From Flavobacterium paronense (lineage in GTDB: Bacteria > Bacteroidota > Bacteroidia > Flavobacteriales > Flavobacteriaceae): a stretch of 64,000 nt of DNA. Each line of letters begins with the position of its first letter. Position 1 is the first letter of the stretch. This document shows positions 5,767-19,711 of the stretch, in pieces. Position numbers and translations under genes: made by a program. The notes below the pieces were generated by a model. It searched no databases, was not told the origin of the DNA, and was given only the letters and a program-made list of their open reading frames with translations. The stretch spans positions 868,001-932,000 of the forward strand of contig NZ_JAUFQN010000019.1 of NCBI RefSeq assembly GCF_030409795.1, in the 5' to 3' direction.

Positions 5767-6360
5767 ATGTATAGATACTTTTTTAAGCGTGTTATTGATT
5801 TATTTATTGCCATTTTTGCATTTATTCTTGTAACACCTATATTATTTTTAACCTTTATATTAATAAAAATTGATTCAGAAGGACCTATATTCTTTTTACA
5901 AGAACGTTTAGGTGTTGACAAAAAGATTTTTAAAGTTATAAAGTTAAGAACGATGACAAACAAAAAGCGTGATTCGCACGTTCAGGTGTATGAAAATAAT
6001 CCGGAAGTTACCAAATTAGGTGTTTTTTTAAGGAGAACAAAAATTGACGAATTGCCACAAATTATAAATGTTTTAAAAGGCGATATGGCAATTGTAGGAC
6101 CTCGACCTTGTCTGCCTACAATTGAACATTTATTTGATGATAATACTCCAAAAAGATTTGAAGTGAGACCAGGTGTTACGAGTTTAGCGGGTGTTAGTGG
6201 CAGTATTTATTTGAGTTGGCCAGAAAAATGGTATTATGACAAAATTTATGTTGAGCGCTTGACATTTTTATTAGATATCAAAATCATATTTATGACAGCA
6301 TTAGTTGTAGTGGTTGGGGAAAAAAAATTTTTAAAAAGACCAGAATTGAAAAATAAATAG
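5767..6360 (+). CDS. PglC-type undecaprenyl-phosphate sugar-1-phosphate transferase (copy 1)
   Basis: This 197-residue monotopic phosphoglycosyl transferase should move a sugar-1-phosphate from a UDP-sugar to undecaprenyl phosphate, starting a lipid-linked glycan. A hydrophobic re-entrant helix spans about residues 7-34. The catalytic Asp-Glu dyad sits in K-I-D-E-L-P-Q (D94, E95), followed by K-G-D-M-A-I-V-G-P-R-P (104-114). The size matches the minimal PglC/PglB-type catalytic domain without the extra membrane domain of WcaJ. It is the first of three short copies in the window, followed four bases later by an acyltransferase. Its C-terminal part (S-L-A-G-V-S-G-S-I-Y) differs from the W-A-Q-V-N-G-R type of the other two copies. 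Confidence 0.93.
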   Translation: MYRYFFKRVIDLFIAIFAFILVTPILFLTFILIKIDSEGPIFFLQERLGVDKKIFKVIKLRTMTNKKRDSHVQVYENNPEVTKLGVFLRRTKIDELPQIINVLKGDMAIVGPRPCLPTIEHLFDDNTPKRFEVRPGVTSLAGVSGSIYLSWPEKWYYDKIYVERLTFLLDIKIIFMTALVVVVGEKKFLKRPELKNK

Positions 6361-6363
6361 TTT

Positions 6364-7311
6364 ATGGAAATTCGAGATTATAAAAAAGGGGATGAGATAG
6401 CCATTTTATCATTATTTGAAAAAGTGTTTAAGGTACCGATGAGTTTACCTTATTGGCAATGGCGTTTTGAAAATAATCCTGCAGGTCAGTATTTTATTAA
6501 ATTGATGTGGGATGGTGATTCATTGGTTGGTCATTATGCTGTTTCACCTGTTTACCTGTTGATTAATAATCAAAAATGCTTGACTACTTTGTCTATGACT
6601 ACCATGACACATCCTGATTATGCAGGGCGTGGTATTTTTAAGGATTTAGCAGTTGCCTTTTATGATCAGTTAGAAAACGAAAAAGGAGTAGTAGCTATTT
6701 GGGGTTATCCTAACAGCAATTCTCACTATGGATTTATCAAAAATTTGGGTTGGAAGGATTTATCGGTTGTACATTCTTTGTCAATGCCAACCACCAGTTT
6801 ATCTCCTAAATCCTCACCTAATGTGACATTGGTTCATAAATTTACTGATAAGCATGTAAAACAACTATCAGAATTTAGTCAATCCTTTGCTATTACAATT
6901 GATAGAGATCTTACTTACTTGAATTGGAGGTATGTGCAAAATCCTTCAAAAGCATATCGAATATTTGAATATGCTAATGACAAAAATGAAGGTTTTGTTG
7001 TAGTTAAAATACATCCTTCAGCAATAGTTCCGGATACTTGGGAAATTTATATTTTGGAATTGGGAATTAATGATATTTCCATTTTCGCAGAATTGTTTGA
7101 ACAAATAATTGCTTATTATGAAAAGCCAATTTCAAGAATAAATATTTGGATTTCTTTGTGGGATAAAAGACATATTCAGCTAGAAAAAATAGGATTTGCA
7201 CCTTTTGGGAAGCAAACTTTTTTAGGAGCCCGTTTTGAAGAGAACACACATGCTCTTGTTGGAGATTTTAAAAACTGGTATTATTCTTACGGAGATTCCG
7301 ACGTATATTAA
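6364..7311 (+). CDS. GNAT-family N-acetyltransferase
   Basis: This 315-residue protein has a GNAT N-terminal half. It opens with M-E-I-R-D-Y-K-K-G-D-E and has a Y-W-Q-W-R-F-E-N-N-P block at about 34-43. The acyl-CoA-binding region is seen as M-T-H-P-D-Y-A-G-R-G-I-F-K-D-L near 77-91. It would acylate an amino or hydroxyl group, probably on a sugar. The protein is long for a single GNAT domain, and the C-terminal half may be a second, degenerate GNAT fold. It overlaps no neighbour but runs to within 10 bases of the PIG-L deacetylase start, suggesting a deacylation/reacylation pair. The relation to the GNAT gene at 40626 is visible in the shared aromatic W-x-W motif. Confidence 0.8.
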   Translation: MEIRDYKKGDEIAILSLFEKVFKVPMSLPYWQWRFENNPAGQYFIKLMWDGDSLVGHYAVSPVYLLINNQKCLTTLSMTTMTHPDYAGRGIFKDLAVAFYDQLENEKGVVAIWGYPNSNSHYGFIKNLGWKDLSVVHSLSMPTTSLSPKSSPNVTLVHKFTDKHVKQLSEFSQSFAITIDRDLTYLNWRYVQNPSKAYRIFEYANDKNEGFVVVKIHPSAIVPDTWEIYILELGINDISIFAELFEQIIAYYEKPISRINIWISLWDKRHIQLEKIGFAPFGKQTFLGARFEENTHALVGDFKNWYYSYGDSDVY

Positions 7312-7321
7312 TTTTAAAAAT

Positions 7322-7987
7322 ATGAAAAAAATATTAGTTATTGCACCACATCCTGATGATGAGGTTTTAGGTTGTGGAGGAATTATAAAGAAATATGCTG
7401 CTGCTGGTAATTCAGTTTATGTTTTGATAGTTACGAGAGGAACTCCTAAATTGTATTCTGATGAAAAAATTAAAAATGTTAGAAATGAAGCGAAAAGAGC
7501 ACATGAAATCCTAGAAGTAAAAGAGACGCTTTTCTTCGATTTTATTGCACCTGATTTAGACATTACCTCACGAGCAGAAATCTCAAGAGCCATTGCAAAA
7601 GTTATACAAGAACTTCAGATTGAAGAATTGTATTTACCACATAGAGGAGATATTCATCATGATCACGGAATTGTATTTCATGCAGGTTTAGTAGCGGCAC
7701 GCCCAGTAAATAACTCTACAGTAAAAAGAATTTTCACTTATGAGACTCTTTCTGAAACGGAATGGGCAGCACCCTTTAGTGATGATGCTTTTATTCCAAA
7801 CCACTTTGTTAACATAGAAGCTCAAATGAAATCAAAGTTAGATGCGATGATTTGTTTTGGGACTCAAGTAAAATCTTTTCCAAGCACTCGTTCTTTAGAA
7901 ACAATTGAAGCATTAGCTAAGTATAGAGGTGCAACTGTTGGTTTTGCCAGAGCAGAAGCTTTTATGGTGATTCGAACTATTGAGTGA
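7322..7987 (+). CDS. PIG-L family N-deacetylase
   Basis: This 221-residue PIG-L/LmbE-family enzyme removes the N-acetyl group from a GlcNAc-type or related amino sugar using a metal ion. The defining A-P-H-P-D-D-E motif is at residues 8-14, and the second metal-binding cluster D-I-H-H-D-H lies near 109-114. I chose the ATG at 7322 because the family begins with K-K-I-L-V-I-A-P-H; a longer frame reaches back to 7235 but would overlap the GNAT gene. It lies directly after that GNAT gene, so the pair may swap one acyl group for another. Substrate is unknown. Confidence 0.9.
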   Translation: MKKILVIAPHPDDEVLGCGGIIKKYAAAGNSVYVLIVTRGTPKLYSDEKIKNVRNEAKRAHEILEVKETLFFDFIAPDLDITSRAEISRAIAKVIQELQIEELYLPHRGDIHHDHGIVFHAGLVAARPVNNSTVKRIFTYETLSETEWAAPFSDDAFIPNHFVNIEAQMKSKLDAMICFGTQVKSFPSTRSLETIEALAKYRGATVGFARAEAFMVIRTIE

Positions 7988-8094
7988 TCACAGTTCAAGT
8001 GTATAGGAATAATCAAAGTTTTACTAAAATAGCTAATATATTACAAGAGAATTCTTTAAATTATAAATCTGAAAACATAAAATTATTTAATTAA
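7984..8094 (+). other. Possible 36-codon ORF filling the gap between PIG-L and PglC genes
   Basis: A GTG-initiated frame overlaps the PIG-L stop by four bases and ends on the A of the next gene's ATG (TAATG), exactly filling the gap. Its content is protein-like, with V-Y-R-N-N-Q-S-F-T-K-I-A-N-I-L-Q-E-N-S. No domain or hydrophobic segment is seen. It may be a real tiny gene, a remnant of a lost gene, or chance in AT-rich DNA. Confidence 0.2.
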
Positions 8095-8699
8095 TGTACA
8101 ATTTTTTTTTAAAACAAGTAATTGATTTTTCTATCGCTCTTCTGGCTTTAATATTTATTTCTCCAGTTTTTATTGTGATAATGGTGGGCCTTTATTTTGC
8201 AAATAGAGGTAAACCTTTTTTTTATCAAGATAGGCCGGGAAAAAACAATCGTATTTTTACAATAATTAAATTTAAAACGATGAATGATAAAAAGGATAAG
8301 AATGGAGAATTATTGCCCGATTTTGATAGGTTAACTAAGTTAGGTGCTTTTGTTAGGAAATCATCATTAGATGAAATCCCTCAATTGATTAATGTTCTTA
8401 AAGGGGATATGAGTTTAATTGGACCTCGCCCGTTATTGCCGGAATATTTGCCTTTTTATAACGATATTCAAAAAAGGCGTCATGATGTAAAACCAGGAAT
8501 TTCGGGTTGGGCTCAAGTAAATGGACGAAATGCAATCAGTTGGGAGGATAAATTTAAATATGATGTTTGGTATGTTGACAATTGTTCTTTTTTATTGGAT
8601 TTAAAAATTTTTTGGATAACCTTTGTGAAGGTTTTTAAAAGAGAGGGAGTGAATATATATATTAACGAGACTGATTTGCCATTTCAAGGGGAAAAATAA
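8094..8699 (+). CDS. PglC-type undecaprenyl-phosphate sugar-1-phosphate transferase (copy 2)
   Basis: This is the second short initiating transferase, 201 residues. It has the N-terminal re-entrant helix at about 8-36, the lipid-facing N-R-G-K-P-F-F-Y-Q-D-R-P-G-K block (37-50), the catalytic dyad in S-L-D-E-I-P-Q (D93, E94), and K-G-D-M-S-L-I-G-P-R-P (103-113). The late motif G-W-A-Q-V-N-G-R-N is intact. PglC enzymes of this form use UDP-diNAcBac-like sugars, which fits the PglD/E/F-like genes next to it. It is clearly paralogous to the copy at 12607, and the two bracket the acyl cassette. It starts on the last base of a small upstream frame, and the following gene starts five bases after its stop. 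Confidence 0.94.
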   Translation: MYNFFLKQVIDFSIALLALIFISPVFIVIMVGLYFANRGKPFFYQDRPGKNNRIFTIIKFKTMNDKKDKNGELLPDFDRLTKLGAFVRKSSLDEIPQLINVLKGDMSLIGPRPLLPEYLPFYNDIQKRRHDVKPGISGWAQVNGRNAISWEDKFKYDVWYVDNCSFLLDLKIFWITFVKVFKREGVNIYINETDLPFQGEK

Positions 8700-8703
8700 A
8701 AAA

Positions 8704-9342
8704 ATGAAAAAAATAGCCATATATGGTGCAGGTGGATTTGGTAGAGAAGTTGCCTGTATGATTAATGCGATAAATGAACTAGAACCGAAATGGGATTTAG
8801 TTGGTTTTTTTGATGATAATCCTGCAACAAAAAAAAATAAATACGGAGAAATACTTGGTAATATTGATGTTTTAAATAATTGGGAAACCGAATTAAGTAT
8901 TGTTTTTTCAATTGCTAATCCATTAATTTTAAAAGAATTAGTTTCAAAAATCACTAATCTATTAATTGACTTTCCAAATATTGCAGCACCAAATGTCAAT
9001 TTTCTTGACAAGGAAACCCTAGAAATGGGAAAAGGAAATTTATTCTTTTTTGGAGCCCGTGTCAGTTGTGATGTTAAAATGGGTAATTTTAACATGTTAA
9101 ATGGTTTTGTTTCATTAGGCCATGATGTGCAGATTGGCGATTACAATATTTTAGGACCAATGGTAAGGATTTCAGGAAGTACAGTGCTTAAGGATTCTAA
9201 TTTTTTTGGTGTTCAATCCATTGCATTACAAGGAATAAAAATTGGAAGTAATATTAGAGTTGGAGCAAATAGTGTTTTAATTCGAAACACAAAAGACAAT
9301 AATTTATATGTTGGAAATCCAGCTAAATTGGTAAAATTTTGA
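8704..9342 (+). CDS. PglD/NeuD-like sugar O- or N-acyltransferase (left-handed beta-helix)
   Basis: This 212-residue protein has the two-part PglD layout. An N-terminal Rossmann-like nucleotide-sugar site reads I-Y-G-A-G-G-F-G-R-E (6-15), and a C-terminal hexapeptide-repeat beta-helix runs from about residue 105. The presumed catalytic histidine is H140 in V-S-L-G-H-D-V-Q-I-G. PglD acetylates the 4-amino group of a UDP-4-amino-4,6-dideoxy-GlcNAc. Because it is immediately followed by KAS III, ACP, KAS III and SDR genes, I infer that here it may use a longer acyl-ACP or acyl-CoA. It starts just after the copy-2 PglC gene and ends seven bases before the first KAS III gene. Confidence 0.88.
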   Translation: MKKIAIYGAGGFGREVACMINAINELEPKWDLVGFFDDNPATKKNKYGEILGNIDVLNNWETELSIVFSIANPLILKELVSKITNLLIDFPNIAAPNVNFLDKETLEMGKGNLFFFGARVSCDVKMGNFNMLNGFVSLGHDVQIGDYNILGPMVRISGSTVLKDSNFFGVQSIALQGIKIGSNIRVGANSVLIRNTKDNNLYVGNPAKLVKF

Positions 9343-9349
9343 TTCTATT

Positions 9350-10423
9350 ATGGCTTTTCAAAAAATAAAAAATGTAAAAATAGCTGGGATATCGGCTTGT
9401 GTTCCTGAAAATATAGTAGATAATGCTTCATCAAAAATCATAGGAGACGCCAATGAAATTCAAAAATTTATTGACGCAACCGGAATTGCAAAACGACACA
9501 CGGTTGGCAATAGTAAAATTTGCACCTCAGATTTATGTTTTCAAGCAGCAGAAAAACTTATTGAAGATTTGCAATGGTCAAAACAGGATATTGATTGTTT
9601 GATTTTTGTAACACAAACTCCAGATTACATTTTGCCAGCAACATCGTGCATTCTTCAGCATAGATTAGGTTTGACTACCGACTGTTTTGCTATTGATATT
9701 TCATTAGGATGTTCGGGCTGGGTATACGGATTAGCAACAATTTCTCAATTAGTGAGTTCAGGAAATTTTAAAAAAGGATTATTGCTTGTTGGAGATACTG
9801 TAACGGTTACAAAATCAGAACTTGACAAGAGTACGTTTCCGCTATTTGGTGATGCAGGTACAGCAACTGCACTAGAATTTAATGAAAATGCTCCTGAACT
9901 ATTTTTTCAAACATCAACAGATGGAAGTGGCTATCAATCCATAATTATAGAAGATGGTGGTTTTAGAAATTTCTTTACCAAAGAATCTCTCGAGGTAAAA
10001 GAAAGGGAAGAAGGTGTGTTTAGAAATAATTTGCAAAGCTATCTTAATGGTGCTGATGTTTTTATTTTTGGAATTACTAAAGCTCCGAAAAGCATTAATT
10101 CGTTGATTGAAAAATTTAATATCGACAGAGAAGAAGTAGATTATTTAATTATGCATCAGGCCAATAAACTGATGAATGATAAAATAAGAAAAAAAGTAAA
10201 TATTGATACCGAAAAAGTTCCTTATTCGTTTGATGAGTACGGAAACACTTCTTCAGCTTCAATACCTTTAACTATAGTTAGCCGATTAAATGAAAAAGTC
10301 TCAAATTCAAGTAATAAATTTATTGCCTGTGGATTTGGAGTTGGACTTTCATGGGGTTCTGTATATTTTGAAACGGATACTATAATATGCCCAAAAGTGA
10401 TTACATATAACTCAAATAATTAA
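9350..10423 (+). CDS. 3-oxoacyl-ACP synthase III (FabH-like), first copy
   Basis: This 357-residue condensing enzyme has the complete KAS III catalytic triad: Cys121 in S-L-G-C-S-G-W, His269 in I-M-H-Q-A-N, and Asn299 in Y-G-N-T-S-S-A-S-I-P. It should join an acyl starter to malonyl-ACP by decarboxylative condensation. Placed between a PglD-like acyltransferase and a dedicated ACP, it probably belongs to polysaccharide decoration and not housekeeping fatty-acid synthesis. It ends five bases before the ACP gene. A second, related KAS III follows the ACP. Whether it uses acetyl-CoA or a hydroxyacyl starter cannot be told. Confidence 0.92.
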   Translation: MAFQKIKNVKIAGISACVPENIVDNASSKIIGDANEIQKFIDATGIAKRHTVGNSKICTSDLCFQAAEKLIEDLQWSKQDIDCLIFVTQTPDYILPATSCILQHRLGLTTDCFAIDISLGCSGWVYGLATISQLVSSGNFKKGLLLVGDTVTVTKSELDKSTFPLFGDAGTATALEFNENAPELFFQTSTDGSGYQSIIIEDGGFRNFFTKESLEVKEREEGVFRNNLQSYLNGADVFIFGITKAPKSINSLIEKFNIDREEVDYLIMHQANKLMNDKIRKKVNIDTEKVPYSFDEYGNTSSASIPLTIVSRLNEKVSNSSNKFIACGFGVGLSWGSVYFETDTIICPKVITYNSNN

Positions 10424-10428
10424 GTAAA

Positions 10429-10653
10429 ATGGAACAGAAATTTTTAGATTTATTCAAAGAAACATTAGAAATAGAAGATAGAGAAATTGCTTTAACAGAC
10501 TCGTTCAGAAATTTTGACGAATGGGATTCTTTAGCGCTTTTATCAGTTATAGCAATGATTGACGAAGAATATGATGTTATTATTGAAAGCAAAGAATTTC
10601 AAAAGCTAACTACAATTGGAGAAGTTTTTAACTACATTCAATCTAATTCATAA
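10429..10653 (+). CDS. Acyl carrier protein
   Basis: This 74-residue acidic protein has the phosphopantetheine attachment motif D-S-L at residues 33-35 (Ser34) within E-W-D-S-L-A-L-L. That is the expected position for a stand-alone ACP, and the downstream helix E-E-Y-D-V-I-I fits too. It would hold the growing chain for the two flanking KAS III enzymes and the SDR. It sits five bases after one and 12 bases before the other. A dedicated ACP inside a glycan locus supports a special acyl chain. It differs from housekeeping AcpP-type ACPs in its divergent, less acidic helix II region. Confidence 0.93.
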   Translation: MEQKFLDLFKETLEIEDREIALTDSFRNFDEWDSLALLSVIAMIDEEYDVIIESKEFQKLTTIGEVFNYIQSNS

Positions 10654-10665
10654 AATAATTTAAAT

Positions 10666-11724
10666 TTGGCATTACTTAAATTCAACAATATTGGTATCAC
10701 CGGAATGTCGGCATGTGTTCCTAAAAACCGAATTGATAATTACGATTACACAACCTATTTTGATAAAGAGGATGTAAAAAATATTGTTGATAAAATTGGT
10801 ATTGAACAAAGAAGATTTGCAAGTGATGAGGTATGCGCTTCTGATCTTTGCTTTGCTGCCGCCGAAAAACTAATTTCAGATATGGATATCGATAAATCTG
10901 AAATTGATTTACTGATTTTTGTATCACAGACACCAGATTTTAGAATGCCTGCTACATCTGTTTTACTTCAAGACAGATTAGGATTGTCAAAACAAACTGC
11001 TGCTTTTGATTTAACTTTAGGTTGCTCTGCTTTTATTTATGCTTTATCAACTGTTTTTGCTTTTATGCAAGGCAAGAATTTTAGAAAAGCATTACTTCTT
11101 GATGGAGAAACTCGTTCCAGAATTTATTCACCAAAAGACAGAAAAACGGCGTTTCTATTTGGAGACGGCGGAGTAGCTGCCATTATTGAGAATAATGATA
11201 AGTTTAAAGAGAGTTATTTTTCCTTGAATTCGGATGGTTCAAAAGAAGAGTACATAAAAATAAAATCAGGAGGTTACAGAAACCCGAGTTCAATAGAATC
11301 TCTCACAGAAAAAGTTGTAGATGAGCATGGAAATATCAGAACAGATGAGCATGGATATATGTCTGGAGCAGATGTTTTTAATTTTGTTTTAGCTGAAATT
11401 CCATCCGATATAAAAAATATTTTAGCCTTTTCTGGAGTTGATAAAGAATCGTTAGATTTTATTGTTTTTCATCAGGCCAATAGTTATATGAACAATTATT
11501 TGGTTAAGAAATTGAAGATAGATAGCCAAAAAGCACCTACTTCACTTCAAAAATTTGGTAACACCTCGTCAGTTTCCATTCCTTTGACTATAGTTTCTGA
11601 ATTACAAAATCAGCTTCAGGATAGAAAAAAAGTACTTCTGTCTGGTTTTGGAGTAGGAATGAGTTGGGCTTCAGCTATTTTAGACTTTGAAGATTGTCAC
11701 ATTTCAGACCTAATCGAAATATAA
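10666..11724 (+). CDS. 3-oxoacyl-ACP synthase III (FabH-like), second copy
   Basis: This 352-residue KAS III is paralogous to the copy at 9350. Its triad is also complete: Cys120 in T-L-G-C-S-A-F, His269 in V-F-H-Q-A-N, and Asn299 in F-G-N-T-S-S-V-S-I-P. The start is a TTG at 10666; this fits the family's N-terminus (N-I-G-I-T-G-M-S-A-C-V-P), and the first ATG lies too far inside. Two condensing enzymes with one ACP suggest two rounds of chain extension, or two starters of different type. Its TAA stop overlaps the SDR start (TAATG). Insertions after residue 200 differ from the first copy, which may reflect a different substrate. Confidence 0.92.
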   Translation: MALLKFNNIGITGMSACVPKNRIDNYDYTTYFDKEDVKNIVDKIGIEQRRFASDEVCASDLCFAAAEKLISDMDIDKSEIDLLIFVSQTPDFRMPATSVLLQDRLGLSKQTAAFDLTLGCSAFIYALSTVFAFMQGKNFRKALLLDGETRSRIYSPKDRKTAFLFGDGGVAAIIENNDKFKESYFSLNSDGSKEEYIKIKSGGYRNPSSIESLTEKVVDEHGNIRTDEHGYMSGADVFNFVLAEIPSDIKNILAFSGVDKESLDFIVFHQANSYMNNYLVKKLKIDSQKAPTSLQKFGNTSSVSIPLTIVSELQNQLQDRKKVLLSGFGVGMSWASAILDFEDCHISDLIEI

Positions 11725-12470
11725 TGAAATATAATCCTTTTTCTCTTAGTGGTAAATTTATTCTGGTTACCGGAGCTTCTTCTGGTATAGGTAAAGTTGT
11801 AGCATTAGAATGTTCTAAAATGGGTGCCAATGTAATCATCACCGGAAGAAATAAAGAACGACTAAACGAAACATTTCAATCTCTCGAAAAGAACGAAAAT
11901 CACCTACTCATTGTTGCGGATTTGTCCAATAAAGAAAATTTAGATTCATTAGTTCTTCAGATTCCAAAATTAGATGGCATTGTTCATTGTGCGGCCATGT
12001 TGAAGAAAGTTCCATTTAAATTTCTTAATGAGAAATCCTGGGCCGAAACTATTGAAACCAATTTATATGCCCCGGCAATCCTTTCCCAATTGTTATTCAA
12101 AAACAATAAAATAAATTTAAACGCTTCTATAGTTTTTATATCTTCTATTGCTTCTAAAGTTGCTTCTTTTGGAAATATATCCTACATGGCTTCCAAAGGT
12201 GCAATAAATTCACTCTCAAGAGGAATGGCACTTGAACTTGCACCTAAAAAAATACGAGTAAATACGATAGAACCTGCACTTATTAAAACGAATTTAATTG
12301 GTTCTATTTTTTCTGATGAAGATTTGGAAAATTATTTAAAAAAGTTTCCATTAGGACGATTTGGTGAGCCAGAGGAAGTTGCTTATGCCGTTATTTATTT
12401 ACTCTCGGATGCTACTTCTTGGATAACCGGAACAATTATAACTATTGATGGTGGCGTTACCCTTAGGTAA
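11724..12470 (+). CDS. FabG-like short-chain dehydrogenase/reductase
   Basis: This 248-residue classical SDR has the NAD(P)-binding T-G-A-S-S-G-I-G motif (16-23) and the catalytic Ser140/Ser141, Tyr154, Lys158 set (Y-M-A-S-K). The ending I-T-G-T-I-I-T-I-D-G-G is typical of FabG. It would reduce the 3-oxoacyl-ACP made by the flanking KAS III enzymes to a 3-hydroxyacyl-ACP. I chose the ATG at 11724, which overlaps the upstream stop by one base; a frame from 11694 adds ten residues not typical of the family. No dehydratase or enoyl reductase follows, so hydroxyl groups would be kept in the product. Confidence 0.91.
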   Translation: MKYNPFSLSGKFILVTGASSGIGKVVALECSKMGANVIITGRNKERLNETFQSLEKNENHLLIVADLSNKENLDSLVLQIPKLDGIVHCAAMLKKVPFKFLNEKSWAETIETNLYAPAILSQLLFKNNKINLNASIVFISSIASKVASFGNISYMASKGAINSLSRGMALELAPKKIRVNTIEPALIKTNLIGSIFSDEDLENYLKKFPLGRFGEPEEVAYAVIYLLSDATSWITGTIITIDGGVTLR

Positions 12471-12512
12471 TGATGATTTAAGATATAAATTTGTCAGCCT
12501 AAGGAAATTTGT

Positions 12513-12614
12513 ATGAATAGAAAGCTAATAGAAAATTTACTTTTCACAGAAGATTTTTTTTATGAAGTCAAATTCTTAATTGCAATAGATTCGAAAAAAA
12601 TTAACCATGTATAG
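12513..12614 (+). other. Possible 33-residue ORF ahead of the third PglC gene
   Basis: An ATG-initiated frame reads M-N-R-K-L-I-E-N-L-L-F-T-E-D-F-F-Y and ends eight bases inside the next gene. It fills most of the 136-base gap after the SDR gene. No known domain is seen. It might be a remnant, a short leader, or chance. Confidence 0.15.
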
Positions 12615-13221
12615 AAATTATACTAAAAGAATTTTTGATATTTTTTTTTCAATATTTGGGATAATAGTTTTAAGTCCAATATTTTTAATAGTAACACTTT
12701 TATTGTTTTTTACAAATAGAGGCTTACCATTTTTTTTACAAAACCGTTCAGGAAAGCATGGTAAAATTTTTAAAATTATCAAATTTAAAACTATGAACAA
12801 TAATAGAAATTCTGATGGTGAATTATTACCTGATGAACTTCGAGTTACAAAAATCGGAATGTTTATTCGAAGGATTTCACTAGATGAAATTCCTCAATTA
12901 ATTAATGTTTTAAATGGCGATATGAGTATAGTTGGACCAAGACCTTTATTATCTGATTATTTCCATTTGTTTACTGATTTTCAAAATCGCAGGCATGAAG
13001 TTAAACCAGGAATAACAGGATGGGTTCAGGTTAATGGGCGAAATGCACTTTCTTGGAAAAAAAAATTTGAATATGACGTTTGGTATGTTGACCATGTTTC
13101 TCTGCTATTAGATTTAAAAATTATTTTTAAAACAGTTTTGAAAGTCTTTAAAAGTGACGATATTACTTCTGCTGATTCAGCTTCAATTGAACCTTTTCAA
13201 GGTTTTAATATTAAATATTGA
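12607..13221 (+). CDS. PglC-type undecaprenyl-phosphate sugar-1-phosphate transferase (copy 3)
   Basis: This 204-residue initiating transferase resembles copy 2 through nearly its whole length. It has N-R-G-L-P-F-F-L-Q-N-R-S-G-K at 37-50, the dyad D93-E94 in S-L-D-E-I-P-Q, and N-G-D-M-S-I-V-G-P-R-P at 103-113. The C-terminal motif reads G-W-V-Q-V-N-G-R-N in place of G-W-A-Q-V-N-G-R-N. It lies directly before the PglE-like aminotransferase (15-base gap), a typical pairing for diNAcBac-type pathways. Together with copy 2 it brackets the acyltransferase/KAS/ACP/SDR block, so one may be the older gene and the other part of an inserted cassette. Confidence 0.93.
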   Translation: MYRNYTKRIFDIFFSIFGIIVLSPIFLIVTLLLFFTNRGLPFFLQNRSGKHGKIFKIIKFKTMNNNRNSDGELLPDELRVTKIGMFIRRISLDEIPQLINVLNGDMSIVGPRPLLSDYFHLFTDFQNRRHEVKPGITGWVQVNGRNALSWKKKFEYDVWYVDHVSLLLDLKIIFKTVLKVFKSDDITSADSASIEPFQGFNIKY

Positions 13222-13236
13222 CAATAATAAATAAAT

Positions 13237-14373
13237 ATGAATAACTCAAAAATTTGGCTTTCTTCGCCTCACATGGGTGGAAATGAAAAAAACTTTGTAA
13301 AAGAAGCTTTCGATACTAATTGGGTTGCACCACTTGGACCAAATGTTACCGGTTTTGAACAAGATTTAGAAAATTATCTTGGACAAGAGCACTATGTTGC
13401 AGCTTTAAGTTCGGGAACAGCAGCTATCCATTTAGGATTAGTTTTGTTAGGTGTTACAGCTGGTGATGAAGTAATTTGTCAAAGTTTTACTTTTTCAGCA
13501 TCTGCCAATCCTATTGTTTATCTTGGCGCATCTCCAATCTTTATTGACAGTGAGACAGAAACTTGGAACATGTGTCCAATAGCACTTGAAGAAGCAATTA
13601 TTGATAGACTTAAAAAAGGGAAAAAACCAAAAGCAATAATTCCGGTTCATCTTTATGGAATGCCATTTAAAGTTGATGAGATTAGAAAAATTGCCGATAA
13701 GTATGAAATTCCAATTCTTGAAGATAGTGCAGAAGCATTGGGAAGTACATACAAAGGAAAAAAATGTGGCACATTTGGAGATATTGGAGTTTTATCATTC
13801 AATGGTAATAAAATTATTACTACTTCTGGTGGTGGTGCTTTGGTTACTCTTTCAAAAGGTGTAAAGGAAAAAACGGTTTATTTGGCAACCCAAGCCAGAG
13901 ATAACGAACCACATTATCAACATTCTGAAATTGGATACAACTATAGGTTAAGTAATATTTGTGCCGGAATAGGAAGAGGCCAAATGGAAATTTTAGAACA
14001 TCATGTTTCTTTGAGAAGGAGCATGCATCAGTTTTATTTGGATATTTTTAATACTATTGATTCTGTAACCGTATTTGATGAACCTAATTCTAATTATTTT
14101 TCTAATCATTGGTTAACATGTATTATTATAGATTCTAAAGTTTTGGGTAAAACTATCGAACAATTTCGGGTTGCTTTAGAAATGGAAAACATTGAGTCTA
14201 GGCCTTTATGGATGCCTATGCATTTACAACCCGTGTTTGAAAAGTATCCATATTATGGTTCAAATGTTGCCAATTTGCTTTTTCAAAATGGATTATGTTT
14301 GCCATCAGGTTCTAATTTAACGGAAAGTGATAAGCAAAGGATTACTGATGCAGTTCATCGGTTTTTTAAATAA
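13237..14373 (+). CDS. PglE-like UDP-4-keto-sugar aminotransferase (DegT/DnrJ/EryC1/StrS)
   Basis: This 378-residue PLP enzyme has the sugar aminotransferase layout, with the Schiff-base lysine at about K192 in S-F-N-G-N-K-I-I-T-T-S-G-G-G. The opening I-W-L-S-S-P-H-M-G-G-N-E and the L-E-D-S-A-E-A-L-G-S motif match PglE-type enzymes. These convert UDP-4-keto-6-deoxy-GlcNAc to the 4-amino sugar with glutamate. The next gene encodes the matching dehydratase. The product would be the acceptor for the PglD-like acyltransferase at 8704. It begins 15 bases after PglC copy 3. Confidence 0.93.
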   Translation: MNNSKIWLSSPHMGGNEKNFVKEAFDTNWVAPLGPNVTGFEQDLENYLGQEHYVAALSSGTAAIHLGLVLLGVTAGDEVICQSFTFSASANPIVYLGASPIFIDSETETWNMCPIALEEAIIDRLKKGKKPKAIIPVHLYGMPFKVDEIRKIADKYEIPILEDSAEALGSTYKGKKCGTFGDIGVLSFNGNKIITTSGGGALVTLSKGVKEKTVYLATQARDNEPHYQHSEIGYNYRLSNICAGIGRGQMEILEHHVSLRRSMHQFYLDIFNTIDSVTVFDEPNSNYFSNHWLTCIIIDSKVLGKTIEQFRVALEMENIESRPLWMPMHLQPVFEKYPYYGSNVANLLFQNGLCLPSGSNLTESDKQRITDAVHRFFK

Positions 14374-14440
14374 TTCTTTCTCATACAAAAAATAAAAGAT
14401 AAATTTAACCTAAATTTGGTAGTTATTTAAAAAACCAATT

Positions 14441-16393
14441 ATGATTCGATTTTTATTAAAAGAATTTAGAAAAACCATTTTCAATAGAAAGTTTACCAAT
14501 ATTGGGTATTTGCCCCGATGGATAATTTTTGCAATTGATGTTTTTATAGTATCTATTGCATGTCTTGTGACATATATTATTCTTTCAAGCATGAATGTTA
14601 AAACATATGATGCATTGAATGTTCTAATGCAGTATATTTTAGTAATATTTGTCAATGCTATGTCTTTTATCTTTTTCAGGACTTATTCAGGTATAATTAG
14701 ACATTCTACTTTTATTGATGGCGTAAAATTATTAATTGCAACTACTTCTTCTTTTGTTGTTTTAATGATTATTAATTATTCTTGTCAAATAATTATTGAT
14801 GTTAAATTATTTCTTTCAGCAGGTTTATTTATTACTTATGTAATATCTTTTTTGCAATTATTCTTATTTCGAATTCTAGTTAAGAATTTTTTTGAAGTCT
14901 ATATTCATTTGGGTGAAACTAAGCAATTAACTCGCGCAGTAATTTATGGTGCTGATGCTAATGCCATTTCGGTTGCCAATGCCTTAAAAACTGAAAAACC
15001 TTCACGCTTTAAAGTAGTAGCTTTTGTTGATAAATATAAACAAGTTAAAACTTCAAAGAGTATATTAGATTTACCTATCATTAATCAAACTAGAAAAATT
15101 CATGTAATTCTAAGATCTGTTAAGGCTGAGTCATTAATTATTGCCGAAAAAGGTTTAACAAAAGAAGATATAGTTGCTATAGTTGAAGAATGTTTAGAAT
15201 ATAACATAAAAGTTTACACTGTTCCATTGATAACAGATTGGGAAGATCAAAAGCAAATATCTAATCAATTAAAGAATTTTGCCATTGAAGATTTACTAAA
15301 CAGAAAACAAATTGTTTTAGATAACAATAAAATATCAGCACAGATAAAAGGAAAAACAGTAATGATAACTGGTGGTGCTGGTTCTATAGGAAGTGAAATT
15401 GTTAGGCAAGTAATTAATTTTAATCCTAAAAAAATATTGATTGTTGATCAAGCAGAATCTCCTTTGCATAGTTTGCATCTCGAAGTAGTTACAGAGTTGT
15501 CTAAAAATGTAAAAATTAAAACAATATTAGCAGATGTAAAAGATTATAATGCGCTTGAATCAGTTTTTGAAAAGTACAAACCTGATTTCGTTTATCATGC
15601 AGCAGCATATAAACACGTCCCGTTGATGGAAGAAAATCCATCACAAGCAATTTATACCAATGTAATTGGGACAAAAAATCTAGCCGATTTATCATCCAAA
15701 TACCTTGTTGAAAAATTTGTATTAATATCTACAGACAAAGCTGTAAATCCTAGTAGTGTAATGGGTGCTAGTAAGCGTATTGCAGAAAAATATGTGCAAT
15801 CATTAAATTATCATCTAGTAAATTCAAAGAAAAAAAATAACACTAAATTCATAACTACAAGATTTGGAAATGTTTTGGGTTCAAATGGTTCTATAGTTCC
15901 ATTGTTTACTAAACAAATTCAAGAAGGAGGACCAATAACAATTACACATCCCAAAATAATTAGGTATTTCATGACCATACCAGAAGCTTGTCAACTTGTA
16001 CTAGAAGCTGGTGCAATGGGGAATGGTGGTGAAATTTATATTTTTGATATGGGAGAACCTGTTAAAATTATCGATTTAGCAAAAAAAATGATTAGGTTGG
16101 CTGGCTATATTCCAGATAAAGATATTTACATTAAAATTATTGGATTAAGACCCGGAGAAAAGTTGTATGAAGAATTACTCAATGATACTTCAAAAACACT
16201 TCCAACGCACAATATAAAAATAATGATTGCGCAAGATACTATAGATGATTTTGAAGCAGTTAAAATAGCCATTACAGAATTAATTGCAACTGCTCAAAAA
16301 AAATCTAATCAAGACATTGTTGCAGTAATGAAAAAAATTGTTCCAGAATTTAAAAGTATGAATTCAGAATTTCAAGCTTTAGATGTCATGTAA
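14441..16393 (+). CDS. Membrane-bound UDP-GlcNAc 4,6-dehydratase (PglF/WbpM/CapD type)
   Basis: This 650-residue protein has N-terminal membrane segments (about residues 24-50, 64-80, 95-115 and 122-150), a CoA-binding-like middle domain and a C-terminal extended SDR. The NAD motif T-G-G-A-G-S-I-G-S-E lies near 310-319. The active site is S-T-D-K-A-V-N-P with M-G-A-S-K; the methionine in place of the usual tyrosine is characteristic of these membrane dehydratases. It forms UDP-2-acetamido-4-keto-6-deoxy-hexose, the precursor for PglE-like aminotransferases. Length is normal for PglF/WbpM. It lies just downstream of the PglE-like gene and feeds both the acyl cassette and possibly the NeuC-type enzyme. 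Confidence 0.94.
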   Translation: MIRFLLKEFRKTIFNRKFTNIGYLPRWIIFAIDVFIVSIACLVTYIILSSMNVKTYDALNVLMQYILVIFVNAMSFIFFRTYSGIIRHSTFIDGVKLLIATTSSFVVLMIINYSCQIIIDVKLFLSAGLFITYVISFLQLFLFRILVKNFFEVYIHLGETKQLTRAVIYGADANAISVANALKTEKPSRFKVVAFVDKYKQVKTSKSILDLPIINQTRKIHVILRSVKAESLIIAEKGLTKEDIVAIVEECLEYNIKVYTVPLITDWEDQKQISNQLKNFAIEDLLNRKQIVLDNNKISAQIKGKTVMITGGAGSIGSEIVRQVINFNPKKILIVDQAESPLHSLHLEVVTELSKNVKIKTILADVKDYNALESVFEKYKPDFVYHAAAYKHVPLMEENPSQAIYTNVIGTKNLADLSSKYLVEKFVLISTDKAVNPSSVMGASKRIAEKYVQSLNYHLVNSKKKNNTKFITTRFGNVLGSNGSIVPLFTKQIQEGGPITITHPKIIRYFMTIPEACQLVLEAGAMGNGGEIYIFDMGEPVKIIDLAKKMIRLAGYIPDKDIYIKIIGLRPGEKLYEELLNDTSKTLPTHNIKIMIAQDTIDDFEAVKIAITELIATAQKKSNQDIVAVMKKIVPEFKSMNSEFQALDVM

Positions 16394-16537: not shown

Positions 16538-17296
16538 ATGTTAAAAAAAACGCTTCTACTACTTGTTGGTATTTTTATTATGCAATCTTGTGCTTCTAAA
16601 AAAAACATTCTTTATTACCAAGACATCAAAGACAGTTCACAAAATGCAATAAATTATGTATCTAACGAAATACAGGTTAATGATATCCTATATATTACAG
16701 TTGACGCATTGATTCCTGAATCAGCAAAACCTTTTAATTTGAATTTAAATAGTCCTACTCTAAATACACAAACAATTAAAATTCAAGGTTATTTAGTTTC
16801 TCAGCAGGGAACAATTACTTTTCCAATTTTAGGAGAATTAAAAGTTGCAGGCAAAAGCACTCTTGAATTACAACAAATGCTCACCAAAATATTGAATGAT
16901 AGAGGGTATATAAATGATGCAAATGTAAATGTTAGAGTAATAAATGGTAAAGTTACCGTTTTGGGCGAAGTCAATAATCCGGGAACTTATAGTTTTGATG
17001 AACAAAATATTTCACTAAATCAAGCTATTGGATATGCAGGCGATTTAACAATTAACGGTATAAGAAAAGATGTCTTATTGATTAGAGAAAACAACGGTAC
17101 TAGATCCTATATAAAATTAGATCTAACTTCTTCTAGTTGGTTCACAAGTCCTTACTACTATGTTAAACAAAATGATGTTATCATTGTTAATCCAAATGGT
17201 GCAAAAGTTATGACTTCAGGGTATTTAAGCAATATTGGAAGTATACTCAGTATAATGAGTATTGGAGTAACACTCTTTTTATTATTAAAAAAATAA
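16538..17296 (+). CDS. Wza-like polysaccharide export outer-membrane lipoprotein
   Basis: This 252-residue lipoprotein has a signal peptide ending in I-M-Q-S-C, with the lipidated Cys at residue 18. A Poly_export domain follows (V-N-D-I-L-Y-I-T-V-D near 46-55) and then an SLBB-type domain (G-K-V-T-V-L-G-E-V-N-N-P-G-T-Y at about 143-157). A C-terminal hydrophobic stretch (about 231-250) ends in K-K, as is common in Bacteroidota Wza homologues. It should form the outer-membrane pore of an exopolysaccharide export complex with the Wzc-like kinase six bases downstream. It is shorter than E. coli Wza, which is usual in this phylum. Confidence 0.93.
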   Translation: MLKKTLLLLVGIFIMQSCASKKNILYYQDIKDSSQNAINYVSNEIQVNDILYITVDALIPESAKPFNLNLNSPTLNTQTIKIQGYLVSQQGTITFPILGELKVAGKSTLELQQMLTKILNDRGYINDANVNVRVINGKVTVLGEVNNPGTYSFDEQNISLNQAIGYAGDLTINGIRKDVLLIRENNGTRSYIKLDLTSSSWFTSPYYYVKQNDVIIVNPNGAKVMTSGYLSNIGSILSIMSIGVTLFLLLKK

Positions 17297-17302
17297 TTTT
17301 TA

Positions 17303-19711
17303 ATGGAAAATTCGCAACTCGAACAAGAAAAGCAAAATAGTTTTGATTTTTTAGAACATTTTTTCTTATATCTACGCTATTGGCATTATTTTTTACTTTC
17401 TGTAATTGTTTGTTTTTTTATCGTTAAATATTATTTAAATCATACGGTTTCTATATATGAAACTAAAGCAAAAGTAAAAATTATTGATGACTCAAAGAGT
17501 GGTTTTACTTTACCTAATAGTCCTATTGCGCTATTTTCAAGAAATAAAGTTAACCTTGACAATGAGATCGAAGTTTTAAAATCCTACAGACTGTTAGAAC
17601 AAGTTTGTAAAAGTTTAAATCTTAATAATCAATATTATAATGTTGGGTACTTAAATAATATTGAGATATGGAAAAATAGGCCTTTTACTATTGATTGGTT
17701 AGAAGATGCTTCAAAAATGGAAAATAAATCAATTTCTTTTGAAATTGAAATAGCCAATAATGGATATAAGGTAATCACTTCCTCTTCATCAGCTTCAGCC
17801 AAAATCTATCCCTTTAATACAGTTCAGTATCTTGGAAATTTACCTTATAAATTATCCCTTAAAATTGGCACTGATTTAAGTATTATTGATGGTAGAAAAT
17901 TTTTAATAGTTCACTCTTCCACAGCATCAGTCGTATCAAATCTTTCAAGTAGCTTAAATATTGCCAATAGTAATAAAAACTCTGATATTTTAATTATATC
18001 ATTAGACGGAACTACTGTTGATAAATCTGAAGTTATTCTGAACGAAATAATTAACCAATTTGATGTTGATGGATTAAATGACAGAAGATTAGTTTCTCAA
18101 AGAACTATAGATTTTGTGAATCAACGATTTAAATCGTTAGAAAAACAGTTAGATTCTGTTGAAACCAATAAAGCAAACTACAAACGCAATAATGAATTAA
18201 CCTTTATTACTGCTGATGCAACAACGGCTACAAGTGGTAAAATTGTTGCTACAAGTGACGTTTTTGACGTAGAAACACAAATTGCGTTAGCAAAAGTTTT
18301 AGAACAAACTATTAAAGCGGATAAAAAACTGAACTTATTACCAGCCAATATAGGATTAACCAATAATGGTATTAATCAATTGATTTCTGATTTTAATGCT
18401 GCTGTTCTAGAACGAGATAGACTGTCGGTTAGTAGTGGCGTAAATAATCCGGGTATTCAATTCTTAAATAGTAAGTTAGCCAGTCTAAAATTAAACACTT
18501 TAGAATCTATAAAAGCGTATCAACAAGAGTTAGAAGTATCACTCTCCAAAAATAATTATATTAAAAAATCTTCGGATAATAAATTTAGTTCCATTCCCTA
18601 TAATGAAAAAGTATTAAGAGGGATTGAACGGCAACAAAATATTAAAGAGACTTTATATCTTTTACTCCTTCAAAAAAGAGAGGAAGCTGCTATAAATGTT
18701 GCTATTACTTCATCATCTATAAAGGTAATTGATTATGCTTTATCAAGTTCAAGTCCTATTTCTCCTAAAAAAGGAAATTTTTATTTAATAGCGCTACTAA
18801 TAGGATTATTGATACCTTTTTTAATTTTATATTTAAGTTTTTTACTTGATGATAAATTACATACTAAAGAGGATATTTTAAAATTAACAAAAAATAAAGT
18901 TATTCTTGCTGAAATACCACATATTATAACAGATGATAGAATAACAAGCAGTAATGATAGATCAATATTAGGAGAGTCTTTCAGAATTTTACGAACTAAT
19001 TTAACGTATATTTTTCCTTTGCAAAAAGAAAAATTAGCTCAGACAATAATGGTTACTTCCACCATTAAAGGAGAAGGGAAGACCTTTACAGCATTAAATT
19101 TATCTATTTCATTTTCAATAATGAATAAAAAGGTATTATTGATTGGTGCTGATATGCGAAACCCACAATTACACAATTATCTGACTTTTAAAAAGAATGA
19201 ACTTGGGCTCCAAGATTATTTGCATGATATTACAGTAGATTGGCATAGTACAGTTAAAAAAAGTCCATTAAATAACGGATTAGACATTATCTTGTCAGGT
19301 ACCATTCCACCAAATCCAGCCGAGTTATTATCTAATGGTAGATTAGACAAATTAGTCGCAGAAGCAAGAAATGAATACGACTATATTATTATAGATACAG
19401 CTCCAACACTTTTAGTAACAGATACATTAATAATATCTCAAATAGTTGACACTACATTATATGTTGTTAGAGCTGATTATACTCCTAAAAAGATATTAGA
19501 GTTTTCAGTGAATTTGAGTGAGAAAGGGAAATTAAAAAACTTGGCTTATGTTATTAATAATGTTGGTTCTAATTACAAAGGATACGGATACAGCTACGGC
19601 TACAATTATAAATATAACTACGCCTATGGGTATGGATATGGTTATGATAATGAAACAGGAACAAAGACATCCTTTTTTAAAAGATTACTGTCTAAATTTA
19701 AAAAGGGATAG
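17303..19711 (+). CDS. Wzc-like polysaccharide co-polymerase with BY-kinase domain
   Basis: This 802-residue inner-membrane protein has a Wzz domain between two membrane helices (about 31-50 and 493-515), a long periplasmic coiled region with the conserved S-P-I-S-P-K-K before the second helix, and a cytoplasmic tyrosine-kinase domain. The Walker A motif is T-S-T-I-K-G-E-G-K-T (about 588-597), and Walker A' is seen as L-I-G-A-D-M-R-N-P. The C-terminus holds 12 tyrosines in 24 residues (758-781), the autophosphorylation cluster. It controls chain length and drives export with the Wza-like protein. It runs tail to tail, two bases apart, with a PHP-type phosphatase gene that may reset its phosphorylation. 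Confidence 0.95.
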   Translation: MENSQLEQEKQNSFDFLEHFFLYLRYWHYFLLSVIVCFFIVKYYLNHTVSIYETKAKVKIIDDSKSGFTLPNSPIALFSRNKVNLDNEIEVLKSYRLLEQVCKSLNLNNQYYNVGYLNNIEIWKNRPFTIDWLEDASKMENKSISFEIEIANNGYKVITSSSSASAKIYPFNTVQYLGNLPYKLSLKIGTDLSIIDGRKFLIVHSSTASVVSNLSSSLNIANSNKNSDILIISLDGTTVDKSEVILNEIINQFDVDGLNDRRLVSQRTIDFVNQRFKSLEKQLDSVETNKANYKRNNELTFITADATTATSGKIVATSDVFDVETQIALAKVLEQTIKADKKLNLLPANIGLTNNGINQLISDFNAAVLERDRLSVSSGVNNPGIQFLNSKLASLKLNTLESIKAYQQELEVSLSKNNYIKKSSDNKFSSIPYNEKVLRGIERQQNIKETLYLLLLQKREEAAINVAITSSSIKVIDYALSSSSPISPKKGNFYLIALLIGLLIPFLILYLSFLLDDKLHTKEDILKLTKNKVILAEIPHIITDDRITSSNDRSILGESFRILRTNLTYIFPLQKEKLAQTIMVTSTIKGEGKTFTALNLSISFSIMNKKVLLIGADMRNPQLHNYLTFKKNELGLQDYLHDITVDWHSTVKKSPLNNGLDIILSGTIPPNPAELLSNGRLDKLVAEARNEYDYIIIDTAPTLLVTDTLIISQIVDTTLYVVRADYTPKKILEFSVNLSEKGKLKNLAYVINNVGSNYKGYGYSYGYNYKYNYAYGYGYGYDNETGTKTSFFKRLLSKFKKG

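Follow-up and report, generated by a model that had tools for sequence, protein, structure and literature searches.

A conserved cassette with two KAS III genes in a Flavobacterium paronense glycan locus, most likely a two-round synthase for a sugar side chain

The acyl cassette and its genes

We analyzed a 64,000-nucleotide stretch of the Flavobacterium paronense genome (RefSeq assembly GCF_030409795.1, contig NZ_JAUFQN010000019.1, positions 868,001 to 932,000; hereafter, the window), in which a run of nine genes at 8094-16393 lies in a glycan locus. The segment at 8704-12470, which encodes a PglD-like acyltransferase, two β-ketoacyl-acyl carrier protein synthases of type III (KAS III), an acyl carrier protein (ACP) and a short-chain dehydrogenase/reductase (SDR), is in our judgment likely to be a dedicated two-round miniature fatty acid/polyketide line, making the acyl group carried at N4 of a QuiNAc4N-type sugar. 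The window and its relatives provide the presence and order of these genes, intact catalytic residues, separate housekeeping FabHs, and a change in acyltransferase clade linked to the number of synthases. The cassette is real and conserved, most likely a two-round acyl synthase for N4, and it belongs to a published kind; the acyl-synthase interpretation is not new, having already been published for a gene set of the fish-associated Flavobacterium psychrophilum. The comparative part is our addition: the contrast between one-KAS and two-KAS cassettes suggests which synthase starts the chain and which extends it.

The nine genes and families that a preliminary description had read from this DNA are all present on the forward strand, and Pfam matches agree. 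The first is PglC1, a phosphoglycosyl transferase (8094-8699; PF02397, D93-E94 motif), followed by the PglD-like N-acyltransferase (8704-9342; PglD_N plus hexapeptide). Next come KAS_A (9350-10423; ACP_syn_III N and C domains, triad C121/H269/N299), the 74-residue ACP (10429-10653; PP-binding, Ser34 in DEWDSL), KAS_B (10666-11724, with a TTG start; ACP_syn_III N and C domains, triad C120/H269/N299) and the SDR, a probable 3-oxoacyl reductase (11724-12470; SDR family, Y154/K158). The run continues with PglC2, a second phosphoglycosyl transferase (12607-13221; PF02397), a PglE-like DegT aminotransferase that would convert a UDP-4-keto sugar to a UDP-4-amino sugar (13237-14373; DegT Pfam match), and a PglF-like UDP-GlcNAc 4,6-dehydratase (14441-16393; PF02719 [Polysacc_synt_2] and CoA_binding_3). 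As first described, two complete KAS III genes flank a dedicated ACP; the Cys-His-Asn triads are intact in both, and the two proteins share 147 identical residues over 358 aligned positions.

The genes had been described as separated by gaps or overlaps of a few bases. This is accurate for the six-gene core at 8094-12470 (4, 7, 5, 12, and -1 bp) and for PglC2-PglE (15 bp), but not for SDR-PglC2 (136 bp) or PglE-PglF (67 bp). A 1-base overlap (TAATG) joins the KAS_B stop codon to the ATG of the SDR, which makes ATG 11724, rather than TTG 11694, the most likely start of the SDR. No FabA/FabZ-type dehydratase was listed in the family matches of the nine proteins (for the SDR, the best 25 of 236 families), in agreement with the earlier claim; the top Pfam model of the SDR, PF13561, is an SDR model described as enoyl-ACP reductase.

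The PglD-like protein matches PF17836 and PF00132 and has the His of its His-acid motif at H140 in LGHDV; its TIGR03570 score is 143.5 bits, short of the cut-off of 160.8. For the PglE-like protein, the top NCBIfam model is LegC-type, at 380.3 bits under a cut-off of 420, and PglE is therefore a role label rather than a model-level assignment. The guanine-plus-cytosine content of the cassette is 0.318 versus 0.309 for the window, so the cassette is unremarkable by composition. The source assembly (3.64 Mb) is 99.44% complete and 9.66% contaminated, and the contig that contains the window is 3.2 Mb long.

One-KAS and two-KAS cassettes

We searched for relatives using KAS_B as the query (E ≤ 1e-50). 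Matches were found in 64 of 398 genus genomes, 12 of which, the source genome included, encode a close relative (at least 62% identity); the rest have more distant KAS III. The family sample gave matches in 12 of 299 genomes, again including the source, and a scan of named genomes gave 26 loci. KAS genes were classed in 68 loci (69 clusters) with a 38% identity limit; three named loci duplicate genus genomes and were counted once, and some loci are short contigs. The KAS tree has 73 rows (L006 was left out, and L075 has a very long branch), while the residue tables have 75 rows, 11 of them outside the groups (FabHs and ungrouped KAS), with the FabHs of the source genome represented by L098 and not L097.

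The order PglC-PglD-KAS_A-ACP-KAS_B-SDR recurs in four further loci, from a Flavobacterium metagenome-assembled genome (MAG), an unclassified Bacteroidetes MAG, Ferruginibacter, and Imperialibacter (L050, L051, L057, and L060). This recurrence exceeds chance. The KAS_B clade (support 100/100) comprises 21 loci, and the window and these four are the five that also have KAS_A; the other 16 are without KAS_A in the available sequence, two of them (L058 and L083) being cut by contig ends. Conversely, the KAS_A clade comprises five rows, every one of them beside KAS_B. Among the 12 genomes with a close KAS_B relative, KAS_A adjoins KAS_B only in the source genome (in G646 the contig ends inside KAS_B). 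A KAS_A relative at 59% identity, followed by an ACP, is present in G659, where it lies at the edge of a contig of 3.9 kb (L105).

In most relatives, a PglC-like gene stands immediately before ACP or PglD. PglC directly precedes ACP, and then KAS_B, in 12 of the 16 one-KAS loci (L052 to L056, L061, L076, L078, and L080 to L083), and in those 12 the SDR and the PglD-like gene come after KAS_B where the contig reaches. In one of them, L056, ACP and KAS_B are separated by about 0.9 kb to which no gene is assigned, and a small open reading frame (ORF) lies between KAS_B and the SDR. As for the remaining four, a 101-residue ORF separates PglC from ACP in L077, and the upstream arrangement differs in L058, L059, and L079. 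Given the PglC-ACP adjacency in these 12 loci, the two-KAS layout is the one-KAS layout with PglD-KAS_A inserted between PglC and ACP. KAS_A probably came to this position with an acyltransferase of its own.

A quick tree of PglD (39 rows) shows the same division. The five two-KAS proteins adjoining KAS_A form one group (support 97), beside two PglD from Bacteroides and Parabacteroides cassettes with A-type KAS (98), while all 15 one-KAS loci with data have a PglD in a different group (100). The one-KAS group also takes in the extra PglD of L060 (downstream of the SDRs) and of L057 (upstream of PglC), as if parts of a one-round cassette had remained there. Three further PglD-like genes, two in L052 and one in L056, fall elsewhere in the tree, and L051 has an additional PglD-like gene of a third kind. 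A quick SDR tree groups the SDRs of the window, L050, L051, and L057 together (99). The change of acyltransferase clade with KAS number fits what a difference in chain length would predict.

Starter and extender roles

Because KAS_B occurs with or without a partner and the KAS_A rows occur only beside KAS_B, KAS_B is probably the starter and KAS_A the extender that carries out the second round. The two-round KAS III scheme of the preliminary description stands as an inference, supported by gene content, precedent, and the linked acyltransferase change; we refine it in that the first-round enzyme is probably KAS_B, not KAS_A. The wider set behaves similarly: of the 24 clusters with an A-type KAS, 21 have another KAS as well; the partner is B-type in 6 (one of them loose), C-type in 13, and another type in 2. 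C-type KAS is the only KAS in 11 clusters and shares 13 with A-type, 7 with D-type, and 1 with another C-type KAS; D-type KAS is alone in a single cluster (L112). Four further clusters (L111, L113, L114, and L122) have a B-like KAS and one KAS below the 38% identity limit. Among the entries listed in a search of the literature (titles and the beginnings of abstracts), neither a starter/extender role assignment nor a comparison of one-KAS and two-KAS cassettes was found, which is a weak negative.

Under the proposed route, housekeeping enzymes would supply holo-ACP and malonyl-ACP. KAS_B, which stands alone in one-KAS cassettes, would join acetyl-CoA to malonyl-ACP to give acetoacetyl-ACP, and the SDR would reduce the product to 3-hydroxybutyryl-ACP. 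KAS_A, with its five tree rows all beside KAS_B, would be primed by 3-hydroxybutyryl-ACP and add a second malonyl unit, after which another reduction by the SDR would yield 3,5-dihydroxyhexanoyl-ACP. Judging from their families, PglF and PglE would make UDP-QuiNAc4N and the PglD-like enzyme would move the acyl group to its N4, after which PglC1 would put the acylated sugar phosphate on the lipid carrier. That the acyl group would be C6 in the source organism is proposed by analogy in gene content.

Once the clades had been drawn, we noticed a post hoc pattern at FabH position 36, one of three positions (32, 36, and 151) that we take to contact CoA. Residue 36 is Arg in Escherichia coli FabH and in the source genome's FabH (L098). 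It is Lys in 21/21 KAS_B and 23/23 clade C proteins, hence in 44/44 from the clades able to stand alone, and it is non-basic in 5/5 KAS_A, 11/11 further A-type, and 4/4 clade D proteins (20/20, usually partnered). Ungrouped rows that fit are L070 (Lys in one protein, Ala in its A-type partner) and the A-type proteins of L062 and L065. The Cys-His-Asn triad is complete in 5/5 KAS_A and 21/21 KAS_B. Trp32 is missing in all KAS groups (A, B, C, and D). A separate clade signature is R150 of KAS_B (codon at window 11113), which corresponds to FabH position 142; Arg at this position is invariant in KAS_B but does not occur in the A, C, or D sets, and clade C has Tyr in 23/23.

Several observations weigh against the two-round scheme or the assigned roles. 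Similarity to KAS_B was the basis on which loci were collected, so the locus counts are biased. In the KAS_B tree the five two-KAS rows do not group together, and their monophyly is not rejected either (approximately unbiased test, p-AU 0.448), leaving gain versus loss of KAS_A undecided by the tree. L060 has two SDRs, both outside the two-KAS SDR group; they fall in the one-KAS SDR group (85), which includes one SDR from L093. A second KAS is missing from three of the 24 A-type clusters: L105 ends on its short contig, and L090 and L106 appear complete. The position-36 pattern is contradicted by L084, a looser KAS_B relative that is alone and has Ser, and by L090, alone with Thr. Position 151 was rejected as a role marker; it is Arg in 21/21 KAS_B and Lys in 5/5 KAS_A, but Lys in 18/23 clade C and Arg in 4/4 clade D proteins. 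KAS_B lacks Trp32 and has an invariant Arg in place of FabH L142 (21/21), and it does not stand far from ordinary KAS III, because it passes the broad NCBIfam KAS III model NF006829 (255.4 bits, cut-off 249), which KAS_A at 236.1 does not. Finally, the likeness to F. psychrophilum is one of gene content.

Alternative explanations

The same machinery and order could make another product, if KAS_B were primed by a branched, propionyl, or carboxylated unit or if one keto group stayed unreduced; we consider this unlikely. The lost Trp32 and invariant Arg142 of KAS_B are compatible with such a primer, as is the single SDR of the window cassette with incomplete reduction. BioZ, a FabH relative that acts on glutaryl-CoA, has a tunnel Arg, R147 (PMC8024396). 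However, BioZ R147 lies at Cys115 +32 and KAS_B R150 at Cys +30. The +32 position is Arg in 19/21 KAS_B and in E. coli FabH (R144), and because E. coli FabH shares this Arg, the BioZ comparison carries little weight. Moreover, the F. psychrophilum acyl group associated with equal gene content ends in a methyl and bears two hydroxyls (PMC6519341), which argues against an alternative primer or an unreduced keto group.

A second alternative, which we regard as rather improbable, is that only one condensation takes place, the KAS III pair being a heterodimer or a choice of starters and the amide being C4 (3-hydroxybutyryl). One KAS III is enough for a C4 amide in Pseudomonas syringae (PMC3927599), and KAS_B is alone in the 16 one-KAS loci. 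Against this, both KAS III have complete triads, the acyltransferase clade shifts with KAS_A, and the published two-KAS gene set accompanies a C6 acyl (PMC6519341). The active-site Cys present in both proteins also rules out a ketosynthase/chain-length-factor pair of the type II polyketide synthase kind.

That the KAS III genes are spare housekeeping fatty acid genes placed in the locus by chance is highly improbable: both are FabH-family and KAS_B passes NF006829, but their operon with ACP, SDR, and PglD-like genes is conserved across several Bacteroidota families, and a housekeeping role is rejected given two FabHs elsewhere in the genome (378.4 and 351.6 bits) that exceed the TIGR00747 cut-off of 292.1, below which the cassette enzymes fall (225.9 and 203.8 bits). 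Housekeeping FabH is comparable in its KAS III family, its Cys-His-Asn triad, and probably its malonyl-ACP extender; the cassette enzymes differ in scoring under that cut-off, in lacking Trp32, and in lying within a glycan operon.

Published precedents

The N,N'-diacetylbacillosamine pathway of Campylobacter jejuni (PglF/PglE/PglD/PglC) resembles the cassette in its sugar-building and lipid-loading steps. C. jejuni PglD uses acetyl-CoA, and we know of no ACP or KAS involved in that step. Unlike the enzyme proposed here, C. jejuni PglD N-acetylates its substrate (PMC6519341).

The closest precedent, named in the preliminary description, is real. Cisar et al. (2019) found by nuclear magnetic resonance that the O-polysaccharide of two F. 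psychrophilum strains has a 3,5-dihydroxyhexanoyl amide (R1) on Qui2NAc4N, and they predicted the same pathway from the same gene content (PMC6519341). In their assignments, wfpC and wfpE are KAS, wfpD is the ACP, wfpF the reductase, wfpG the PglD homologue, and wfpB the PglC homologue, with pglE and pglF completing a pathway likened to type II fatty acid synthesis; wfpC, wfpE, and wfpF are termed adjacent (PMC6519341). The window matches this R1 set (wfpB-wfpG, pglE, and pglF) in gene content: it too combines a pair of KAS III with a single ACP, a single ketoreductase, and a single PglD homologue, and its locus likewise includes a PglC homologue, PglE, and PglF. It differs in that the F. psychrophilum locus also includes rml and fln genes, which serve a Rha-FucNAc-Qui2NAc4NR unit; no rml- or fln-named genes were found among the scanned or read genes of the window and the upstream stretch, family scans having covered part of the window genes. 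An F. psychrophilum control primer (Rochat et al., 2017; PMC5601056) exactly matched none of 398 genus genomes and none of 63 KAS-positive ones, a result that cannot prove absence (the searched sets of 11, 52, and 398 genomes overlap).

The viosamine island of P. syringae (vioS, acp, vioR, and vioB) gives a 3-hydroxy-1-oxobutyl amide at N4, and deletion of the reductase gene vioR removes the modified viosamine (Yamamoto et al., 2011; PMC3927599). This island and its homologues in Pseudomonas aeruginosa PAK share with the window a cluster of KAS III, ACP, ketoreductase, and 4-amino-sugar acyltransferase; the island also has a hydroxyacyl amide on a 4-amino-4,6-dideoxy sugar, as is proposed for the window. 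Unlike the window, with its two KAS III, the island has one, its acyl is C4, its Qui4N is dTDP-activated, and its glycan is on flagellin.

Surrounding locus and other acyl cassettes

Upstream of the cassette, the window encodes glycosyltransferases, a GNAT protein, a PIG-L deacetylase, and a further PglC-like protein. The last three lie at 5767-7987 (the GNAT protein matches PF13527) and are possibly a deacetylate-and-reacylate set for another sugar. Three PglC-type initiating transferases (window 5767, 8094, and 12607) thus fall inside 7.5 kb. At 63-1952, a 291-residue asparagine-synthase domain protein with no amidotransferase match sits beside a RimK-like ATP-grasp protein, a pair that could possibly add an amide decoration to the glycan. 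Polysaccharide export and chain-length proteins are encoded at 16538-19711, and NeuB, UDP-GlcNAc 2-epimerase, and cytidylyltransferase genes lie farther downstream. Reading the 19.5 kb upstream by eye, we identified Wzx and Wzy-like genes together with other amino-sugar genes (DegT aminotransferases, FdtA-like, and formyltransferase).

The source genome has a second, different acyl cassette beside glycosyltransferase-like genes (L009, C19:28000-47000; 8106-15172, reverse strand). Its order is AMP-ligase, GNAT, ACP, KAS III, PglD-like, ACP, KAS III, SDR, and a metallo-β-lactamase (MBL)-fold protein; perhaps an activated acid is loaded on ACP and then extended. Both of its KAS lack a basic residue at FabH position 36, and its relatives are L115, L121, and L123.

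Four Flavobacterium cassettes have a Rieske-type oxygenase (PF00355 and PF00848) among their KAS III, ACP, and SDR genes: L085 (10167-11252, reverse strand), L088 (9924-11009, forward), L091 (10642-11718, forward), and L095 (5428-6522, reverse). Genes of the same size, known by size only, occupy similar places in other loci. The oxygenases suggest oxidative tailoring of a sugar acyl chain. The L095 cassette, which has several KAS III, also encodes an AMP-binding protein (PF00501; 2141-3370, reverse strand). In L111 (4702-6123 and downstream), L113, and L114, two KAS III accompany AMP-ligase-like and MBL-like genes (weak BLAST matches only); the upstream gene in L111 encodes an MBOAT O-acyltransferase, and a gene of the same size is present in L113 and L114.

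Implications for surface glycans

The N-acyl groups of O-antigens and capsules help set serotype, and the biosynthesis of unusual ones is mostly predicted. If KAS_B is the starter and KAS_A the extender, side-chain length would be predictable from sequence by the number and clade of KAS III and the clade of PglD, and these five genes would form a two-round polyketide line of very small size that could readily be reconstituted. More broadly, and more tentatively, with the odds in our view slightly against it, the slot beside PglC in Bacteroidota glycan loci may be a combinatorial acyl synthase with a grammar, in which B or C starters, basic at FabH position 36, can work alone and set C4, A or D extenders, lacking that basic residue, add a round, an extender brings a chain-length-matched acyltransferase (PglD-KAS_A as a single insert), and additions such as a Rieske oxygenase or an AMP-ligase accompanied by a second ACP widen the chemistry. 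Were this grammar true, gene content could serve to predict a surface sugar's acyl group.

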